The position numbers and the translations under genes are program-made. The notes below the pieces were generated by a model. That model did not search any database. It saw only the letters and a list, made by a program, of their open reading frames with translations, and had not been told where the DNA came from. A DNA stretch of 56,734 nucleotides, from assembly GCA_007859835.1 (NCBI GenBank), contig SJPJ01000001.1, forward strand, positions 7,285,799 to 7,342,532. The letters run 5' to 3'. This document shows positions 54,143-55,307 of this stretch, in pieces (the first letter of the stretch is position 1; each line of letters opens with the position of its first letter). This DNA is from Novipirellula herctigrandis (GTDB lineage: Bacteria; Planctomycetota; Planctomycetia; Pirellulales; Pirellulaceae).

Positions 54143-54300
54143 TGAGGGTGAAAGTCGCTTGTCCAATTTGACGGAGGTGAAGGACTAGCCAAACGCAAGG
54201 GCATCCGTCGTGAGGCGGGGTCTGAAGGAAGCGTGTAGCGAAGTCATGACTCGACGAACAGCAACCGGACAGTAGGCAGCAAAGGGGATGGAGGAGGCGG
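54143..54300 (+). mobile_element. Group II intron RNA fragment (domain I region)
   Basis: The stretch GGGTGAAAGTC ... GCCAAACGCAAGGG ... TCTGAAGGAAGC ... GACGAACAG ... GGCAG ... GGATGGAGGA, in that order and with about normal spacing, is the conserved 5' part of bacterial group II introns. The rest of the ribozyme, the intron-encoded reverse transcriptase and domains V-VI are not found downstream, so this is a dead 5' fragment. 5' limit uncertain; sequence beyond 54300 no longer matches what I know of the family. Confidence 0.7.
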
Positions 54301-54393
54301 AGAGGAGGGGACGGAGCACACGAGTGAGGGTTTACTCGCAATCCAGTAGCGCTGCACTCAACTTTTCGGATTCTGACGATCCGTTGCTCTAGG

Positions 54394-54841
54394 CATTGGT
54401 ATCTACACAAGTACCAAACTGGCTTAAGTCGTTACCAACTGAAAAAGTTAAATTGAAAGTTGTAAATTGTAAAATCGCCTCCGTCAGCCAGCTTATTCAT
54501 TTTTTGAAGGTTAGCCTTGGCTGTCACGACTGACTTTCCAATGATGTTGCACAATTGGACGCATTCATCGAGAAGCGGCGTGATCCGATCATCAGATAGC
54601 CACTTCGCACCAATTGTCCCGCGATATGCCAGCCTTGCCGAGTGTCCCGCAACGCATCTACCAATTTCCCAATGGGTGCTGCAAAATCCAACAATCGGTC
54701 TTCCAGATCTTCACCGCGCTGATCCATCGATCTTCTCCACTGAAACGTTTCTAGACTTTCAAATTTACAATTGTCAATTTAGATTTTTCAATGACCTCGA
54801 TTGCCGACGTAATCCTTTCCTGACTTGTGTAGATACCAATG
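54394..54841. mobile_element. 448-bp TIR-bounded cassette carrying a four-helix-bundle pseudogene
   Basis: Perfect 19-bp terminal inverted repeats: CATTGGTATCTACACAAGT at 54394-54412 and its reverse complement at 54823-54841. Inside them is a second inverted pair, 54449-54468 and 54762-54781, matching 18 of 20. GCTCTAGG abuts both ends as an 8-bp duplication. Between lies only a minus-strand four-helix-bundle pseudogene, no transposase, so the element is non-autonomous (MITE-like). It sits in the leader of the tyrosine transposase fragment at 54870. Size of TIR and duplication would fit an IS with an 8-bp footprint acting in trans; which one is unknown. Confidence 0.8.
54432..54727 (-). pseudogene. 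Four-helix-bundle (S23/IVP-like) protein, internally deleted
   Basis: From ATG 54727 the N-terminal 43 residues follow the family: LEDRLLDFAAPIGKLVDALRDT, then HIAGQLVRSG. At about 54597-54606 the match jumps to another frame, KWLSDDRITPLLDECVQL followed by CNIIGKSVVTAKANL, which is the family C-terminus, ending at a TAA at 54432-54434. The 40-45 residues between (the helix 2-3 region with the usual TSPAxNYxEA and KLxxxLKELxET parts) are missing. The true frame after the junction stops within the TIR cassette. Such proteins are known from 23S rRNA intervening sequences; here the gene is away from any rRNA. No function expected from the broken copy. Confidence 0.78.
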
Positions 54842-54869
54842 GCTCTAGGAGAGGAATTCGGAGGCTAGA

Positions 54870-55307
54870 TTGGCTCGCGTCGAGGTGTTTGATCCCGCCG
54901 AAATCTCGATTACTCATGTTTTCAATCGCACCGTTCGTCGCTGCTTCTTGATGGGGGATGACCGGATCAGCGGCAAGAATTTTGACCACCGTAAGGTATG
55001 GATTGAAAAGCAGTTAAAGCAGTTCGCTGCTCGCCTCGGTATCGACCTTTTGGGTTTCGTAATTCTGTCAAACCATTTTCATGTGATGCTGCGAAGCAGG
55101 CCGGATGTTGTTGCGAGCTGGGAGGATACCGAGGTTGCTCGGCGATGGCTGATGCTCTGCCCGCATCGGAAGAATGCCGATGGGTGCGTGAGTTACTTGC
55201 CGCTATCGACTGACAGGCTGGAATGTAGCCGCATTGACATCGGCTGCTTTCGAAATTGGCGAGACTACGGTGTGAGGAAAAGGGCGGATAAGGGAAAGAG
55301 GTCGTAA
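54870..55307 (+). pseudogene. Truncated REP-associated tyrosine transposase (Y1, IS200-like)
   Basis: TTG start at 54870 with GGAGG at 54860-54864. Residues 1-105 match planctomycete Y1 transposases: HVFNRTVRRCFLMGD, FDHRKVWIE, the HUH-type pair His69 and His71 in SNHFHVML, then RRWLMLCPHRK. After residue 105 the sequence no longer resembles the family and stops at 55307, whereas relatives have about 300 residues; the catalytic Tyr region is gone. Dead fragment. Its leader was the target of the TIR cassette. Confidence 0.78.

Follow-up and report, generated by a model that had tools for sequence, protein, structure and literature searches.

A miniature transposable element with IS50-like ends and the remains of a four-helix-bundle gene in Novipirellula herctigrandis

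Near the end of the window, by which we mean the whole 56,734-nucleotide stretch of Novipirellula herctigrandis DNA analyzed here, a short minus-strand open reading frame (ORF) lies between two nested sets of inverted repeats that are themselves enclosed by a direct repeat. This arrangement raises the question of what kind of unit the locus represents, and whether it has anything to do with the distribution of four-helix-bundle (S23/IVP) genes in planctomycetes. A previous sequence-only reading had described the locus as a mobile cassette carrying an intact four-helix-bundle gene, and had proposed that such cassettes explain the spread of these genes. Our results establish that the locus is a real mini-transposon of a Tn5-related kind, copied recently, which holds the broken remains of a four-helix-bundle gene. 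The explanation that we favor with high confidence is a nested one, combining an outer miniature element (MITE), moved by a transposase of the IS4 family that is supplied in trans and related to the Tn5/IS50 enzyme, with an inner, dead cassette resembling an intervening sequence (IVS).

Structure and copies of the MITE

The outermost feature of the locus, read directly from the window sequence, is an 8-bp direct repeat, GCTCTAGG, at positions 54386-54393 and 54842-54849, which the sequence and the comparison of copies identify as the left and right target-site duplications. The element between the duplications comprises 448 bp (54394-54841). It opens with a terminal inverted repeat (TIR), CATTGGTATCTACACAAGT, on the plus strand (54394-54412), and closes with the exact reverse complement of this repeat (54823-54841, minus strand), all 19 of 19 positions pairing in ends of an IS4-family, IS50-like kind. 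Further inward, a repeat search of the window recovered a second inverted pair, 54440-54476 and 54754-54790, with 37 nt and 81% complementarity. We annotate this pair as the arms of a nested four-helix cassette, the left arm (54437-54476, plus strand) containing an AT-rich word that begins AAAAAGTTAAATTG and the right arm (54754-54799, minus strand) being inverted with respect to it; the gene remnant lies between them on the minus strand (54506-54727). The 448-bp element contains no ORF of transposase size.

A search of the window genome with the 464 bp of the element and its duplications returned two other complete copies, C1:3569859-3570306 and C1:2316637-2317084, which agree with the 448 bp of the window at 448/448 and 446/448 positions (100% and 99.6%), and a fourth, left-truncated copy of 212 bp that ends at C1:6682924. 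The flanks of the complete copies are different, as judged by eye, and the duplications at all three differ: GCTCTAGG (8 bp) in the window, CTCCAAGC (8 bp) and CCCTCCGGG (9 bp) elsewhere. Dispersed copies with differing 8-9-bp duplications constitute the signature of transposition with target duplication, and the repeat symmetry of the window locus cannot be due to chance, since the same 448 bp sits at two more places. The sequence-only reading was therefore correct in seeing a transposase-free mobile unit in ordinary DNA, bounded by TIRs and flanked by duplications, and in anticipating further copies with duplications of their own. With a length of 448 bp, TIRs pairing at 19/19 positions, duplications of 8-9 bp, and three full copies plus a truncated one, the element shows the properties that define a MITE. 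The same ends, one of them with one mismatch, are also found 198 bp apart at C1:2805219-2805416 in the window genome, with different DNA between them.

The copies also bear on the alternative that had been put forward as incompatible with a mobile unit, namely that the symmetry reflects a local, immobile RNA structure or terminator. Although the inner and outer repeats do fold together into a long hairpin on the minus strand, with a predicted -147 kcal/mol, near-identical copies occur at other loci with different target duplications and the same ends bound transposase-coding elements, so that we attach next to no probability to this explanation. As the only account of the window symmetry, RNA structure is ruled out by the dispersed copies.

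Comparison of the 448 bp with 97 other related genomes gave any match in just 5 of them, and none over more than 201 bp. The sequence-only reading had also looked to empty sites for support. For the copies at C1:2316637 and C1:3569859, searched with their flanks in genomes G001, G002 and G015, we found no empty site: the search yielded repeats and partial matches on different contigs, with no match spanning an insertion point, and the best match (463 bp of the query, 77%, in G002) lies wholly to one side of the insertion.

Two observations concern the immediate surroundings of the MITE. Upstream, positions 54204-54337 (plus strand) match Rfam family RF02001, group II intron D1-D4, with 43.5 bits against a cut-off of 32, and this match ends 48 bases before the left duplication; RF02001 is also present in the flanks of two of the four-helix loci considered below (L262 and L257). 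Downstream, a 145-aa ORF (54870-55307, plus strand) starts 20 bases after the right duplication. Its translation has no Pfam match at E ≤ 0.1, and its NHFHVML stretch resembles a motif of REP-associated (HUH) transposases.

IS50-like ends and full-length relatives

Other public genomes contain the exact 19-mer of the TIR in 113 stretches. Judging from their titles, planctomycetes account for 48 of the 80 listed records, and the remaining listed records include Methylococcales, other proteobacteria, Verrucomicrobiales and acidobacteria; within the family, the ends are present in 12 of 100 genomes when up to one mismatch is accepted. Pairing of ends within these stretches, with up to four mismatches allowed in all, produced 43 pairs with readable flanks and 3 more without flanks. 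The paired elements measure 116-311 bp, except for three of 1363-1388 bp. The flush repeat at the 43 pairs is exact over 8-10 bp in 17 cases, has one mismatch in 10 and at least two mismatches in 16; with the right flanks shuffled, exact 8-bp matches make up a fraction of 0.0016. Many IS and MITE insertions of this family (L039, L042, L069, L072, L110, L123 and others) lie in palindrome-like targets, such as CCCTTTGGG and CCTTTAAGG, and the mean self-complementary fraction of the 43 insertion targets is 0.55, a figure that stands without a control.

Two of the three long elements contain an intact transposase ORF. The L072 element has 1363 bp, a 9-bp repeat and a 429-aa transposase, and the L137 element has 1388 bp, a 10-bp repeat and a 427-aa transposase; the ORFs of the third, L101, are broken up. 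The L072 and L137 transposases are 42.5% identical, and the Y(2)R(3)E(6)K motif is present in each. For the Pfam family DDE_Tnp_1, L137 scores over the cut-off and L072 falls 0.1 bit under it, and in NCBIfam the best matches of both transposases are IS4-family models (97.8 and 96.6 bits, against a cut-off of 160). All PDB matches of the L137 transposase are to Tn5 transposase (best E 5e-8, residues 33-375); for other IS4 subgroups, solved structures may be lacking.

According to the description of the IS4 family in PMC2266710, its members encode a DDE transposase with Y(2)R(3)E(6)K and generate duplications of about one helix turn; Table 1 of that paper gives the IS50 subgroup ends of the form CW------Y---CA-A--W-, lengths of 1350-1550 bp and 8-9-bp repeats, its text has IS50 elements starting with 5'-NT, and IS4Sa is given the end consensus CA------T and repeats of 8-10 bp. 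The window ends match the IS50 consensus at 7 of 7 fixed positions, and the full-length elements, at 1363 and 1388 bp, fall within the IS50 range of lengths; the 10-bp repeat of L137 suits IS4Sa (8-10 bp) better than IS50 (8-9 bp). The IS4Sa consensus likewise fits the window ends, the element begins with 5'-CA in place of the 5'-NT of IS50, and plasmid relatives, among the 25 of 102 matches listed, are annotated as 'transposase' or 'IS4 family' with no subgroup name. For these last three reasons we speak of an IS50-like element and not of an IS50 member; by its ends and the transposases of its relatives, it is assigned to the IS4 family and probably to the IS50 subgroup. The stretch TACACAAGT is presumably common to the outer end of Tn5 and the ends of the window element.

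A complete 1363-bp element, with both TIRs perfect, is located in a congener (G002, C2:706846-708208). Its flanks, CCATGCGGG and CCGTGCGGG, show one mismatch in 9, and its transposase frame is 84.6% identical to that of L072. The presence in a congener of a full IS with the same TIR makes it a plausible helper for the MITE, and together with L072 and L137 it supplies the full-length relative that the sequence-only reading had called for, in each case outside the window genome. Within the window genome, the L072 transposase finds no match and the IS4 profile NF033590 has 0 matches, although the same search of five genomes gave matches in the remaining four; going by the assembly, the window MITEs therefore have no resident helper at present. 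By homology with Tn5, the transposase would bind the 19-bp ends, excise the MITE and insert it with duplications of 8-9 bp, amounting to cut-and-paste in trans by an IS50-like transposase. The copies are probably stranded, or may have moved during the transient presence of a helper.

The four-helix-bundle gene remnant

The minus-strand ORF inside the element (54524-54727) encodes 67 aa. It starts like the four-helix proteins of PF05635 (MDQRGEDLEDRLLDFAAPIGKLVDALRDTRQGWHIAGQLVRSG) and then departs from the family, and its translation in the same frame over 54524-54742 (72 aa) has no Pfam match at E ≤ 0.1. Genome G001 contains the closest intact gene detected, of 122 aa (L167:7171-7539). Only the first ~43 residues of the window ORF align with the intact homologue, the C-terminal part being in another frame. 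Alignment of the element with the G001 gene at the DNA level gives one segment of 201 bp at 69% identity and another of 53 bp at 81%, and lacks the stretch that encodes the middle of the protein. The cargo is a remnant of a 23S_rRNA_IVP-like four-helix gene, with its core deleted and its frame shifted, and not the intact gene that had been described. The same internal deletion and frame shift are common to all three full copies of the MITE, which leaves the expected family of cassettes with intact cargo without a representative among them. Because the three complete copies are in the same broken state, the gene would have lost its core, and been dead, before the MITE multiplied here. A decaying four-helix cassette may have been captured by the MITE or may have inserted into it, and the MITE would now carry the dead gene as filler DNA.

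These observations can be set against the proposal that the TIR unit is a dedicated vehicle of functional four-helix-bundle genes, which would explain the spread of these genes in planctomycetes. The proposal draws on the presence of four-helix-derived sequence within a mobile unit that has multiplied, but all full copies carry the gene in broken form, and a profile built from seven members of the four-helix family detects nothing in the 113 TIR stretches of other genomes, only 71 of which extend inward from the TIR by 448 bp or more. The window genome has 11 PF05635 matches over the cut-off, and 0 of the 11 are bounded by the TIR: for one of them the closest TIR lies at a distance of 2.5 kb, and for the other ten at more than 40 kb. 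The two distributions also disagree, the four-helix family being present in 43 of 60 family genomes and the TIR in only 12 of 100. We consider it very improbable that the unit serves as such a vehicle. In the sample examined, the MITE is not the vehicle of working four-helix genes, and with a broken cargo and no four-helix gene provided with these TIRs it does not explain how the genes spread.

Four-helix genes between inverted arms and their relation to known systems

In the window genome and likewise in a congener, the words of the inner pair also stand on either side of an intact four-helix gene that has no such TIR; the pair consequently belongs with the four-helix gene and not with the MITE. 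The subterminal inverted pair of the sequence-only reading (reported there as 18/20) is thus present, and its assignment to the transposable unit has to be given up. In the window genome, the intact gene L032 is flanked by the arm word at C1:3461646 and C1:3462135, with an arm-to-arm length of 513 bp as against 363 bp in the shortened window copy. Counted with up to 3 mismatches, the arm word occurs at 10 places in this genome: 7 in MITE copies, 2 flanking L032 and 1 alone. Genome G001 has the word at 15 places. Eight of these form part of the array around its intact gene (L167:6750-7945, contig C3), where repeated arms on both sides make up mutually inverted arrays of ~118-122 bp; one forms the left arm beside a fragmentary four-helix gene, four constitute two inverted pairs without a gene (L176, C3:480077-480228, and L175, C5:381437-381540), for which long hairpins are predicted, and two stand alone. 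The count in G015 is 44 places, only one of them with a listed PF05635 match at a distance of up to 1 kb, so the arms are not exclusive to four-helix genes. In the G015 stretches examined, the arm words occur singly, in many cases as part of a longer repeat between genes. A region of that genome, C2:289-346 kb (L314-L316), has the arm word frequently within a longer repeat dispersed through intergenic DNA, and the listed PF05635 matches include none from there.

Nearly all of the 11 PF05635 matches of the window genome appear to lie between inverted repeats, with words specific to each locus. We quantified this pattern on a set of 102 starting loci, consisting of the 11 of the window genome, 29 and a further 60 from a profile search of the family, and L167 and L172; the 60 further loci were selected to be free of stops and mostly of full length, and the set does not comprise all family matches. 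Removal of L262 (no gene call), of six loci with less than 150 bp of flank on a side, and of the duplicates L025 (of L022) and L235 (of L203) left 93 loci. Where a stretch held two four-helix genes the best one was scored, so that one of the neighbors in L022/L025 is uncounted. The arm score compares the 200 bp upstream of the gene with the reverse complement of the 200 bp downstream, after masking tRNA genes and removing duplicates, and the threshold was set at the 95th percentile of mismatched pairs.

The inverted-arm score exceeds this threshold in 59 of 93 four-helix loci versus 5 of 91 ordinary ORFs; the corresponding Fisher P, 6e-18, should not be taken as a true probability, many loci being relatives or lying in shared tRNA arrays. 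One of the five control ORFs that pass, L167_7953, neighbors a four-helix cassette. The threshold is not reached in 34 of the 93 four-helix loci, and 43 of the 93 score above 14; in direct orientation, 22 of the 93 pass the same threshold, which is also above chance. The pattern is displayed by 53 of 70 genes of 105-140 aa, by 4 of 19 genes longer than 140 aa at their own 95% threshold, and by 10 of 10 scored genes of the window genome.

No rRNA family match was found in the available flanks of 99 four-helix loci. A tRNA gene is present within 300 bp of 24 of the 93 four-helix genes, a count without matched control, and 60 of 69 such neighboring tRNAs are on the strand opposite to the four-helix gene. 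In L166 of the window genome (G000:C1:2422151-2427843), for instance, three plus-strand four-helix genes lie between 24 minus-strand tRNA genes. The intact cassette L030, searched with its flanks, has no match in G001 or G002; five of a further six relatives show short matches, the one in G122 being the gene itself, and none has an empty site.

The location of working four-helix genes mostly between their own inverted repeats suggests a separate, poorly understood type of unit. In the explanation favored here, the inner part of the window element is a dead cassette of IVS-like organization, in which AT-rich arms of its own, inverted to each other, enclose a four-helix (S23/IVP) gene. A reading with different implications, which we judge quite possible without preferring it, holds that the arms are the target: palindromic repeats would already exist between genes, and four-helix genes would insert into their loops. 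The related genes L032 and L167 and the gene fragment in L337 tend to share the arm word at different sites, and upstream flank similarity is seen in 73% of the 26 gene pairs above 70% amino acid identity against 1-7% in the lower bands, a comparison in which one gene was counted twice and tRNA genes were left unmasked, so that some of the pairs have tRNA genes in common or represent a single gene; both results run counter to arms that preceded the genes, whereas the gene-less arm pairs of G001, the occurrence of the arm word as a dispersed repeat in G015 and the variation of arm words between loci would all be in keeping with them. We put forward as a tentative proposal, returning to genes that move with their arms, that four-helix (S23/IVP) genes and their cognate arms form an independent mobile unit, and that the 23S IVSs would be only its best-known insertions. 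In planctomycetes these units would be intergenic, with a preference for tRNA arrays and with lineage-specific arm words; the gene-less pairs would be deletion derivatives, and the unit in the window would be a dead one hitch-hiking in a Tn5-like MITE.

Apart from its cargo, the MITE itself is ordinary, and it is the occurrence of four-helix genes between inverted arms outside rRNA that deserves to be followed. The dozens of S23/IVP genes outside rRNA, often located by tRNA genes, provide a natural set for testing IVS-mobility hypotheses across strains, and this planctomycete set bears on the origin and mobility of 23S IVSs and on the role of the S23 protein. A literature search returned no paper joining 'four helix bundle protein' and 'planctomycete', and the wider literature may hold some.

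Among known systems, the window element is akin to IS50/Tn5 in its consensus ends and in its 8-9-bp duplications in the window genome, as are the helper elements in their size of 1.36-1.39 kb and their Tn5-related transposase with Y(2)R(3)E(6)K; it differs in starting with 5'-CA and in carrying the remains of a four-helix gene. In RAYT/REP systems a gene stands between inverted copies of short repeats, and further copies are found singly in the genome; the four-helix cassettes are similar in having inverted short repeats around a gene and elsewhere on their own. The four-helix protein is not known to be an HUH nuclease; its fold is shared by Avd of diversity-generating retroelements, whose gene is accompanied by a reverse transcriptase and template/variable repeats.

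A similar architecture is that of the IVSs of 23S rRNA, which RNase III cuts out of the transcript. As described in PMC4990558, the IVS of Coxiella burnetii has 428 nt, a 28-bp terminal stem and an S23 ORF, and hypotheses dating from 1990 and 1993 view IVSs as remnants of transposition or as mobile elements in which the ORF serves mobility. The planctomycete cassettes likewise have an S23/IVP four-helix ORF between inverted repeats that would pair if transcribed into RNA, at 513 bp for L032 and 363 bp for the window copy compared with the 428 nt of Coxiella. They differ in lying outside rRNA, across 99 loci, and in being beside tRNA genes in 24 of 93 cases, and the window copy differs further in being broken and placed within a MITE. 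Because a location in rRNA was looked for and not found, we do not file the planctomycete four-helix cassettes as 23S IVSs; they resemble them in construction, and do so in ordinary DNA.
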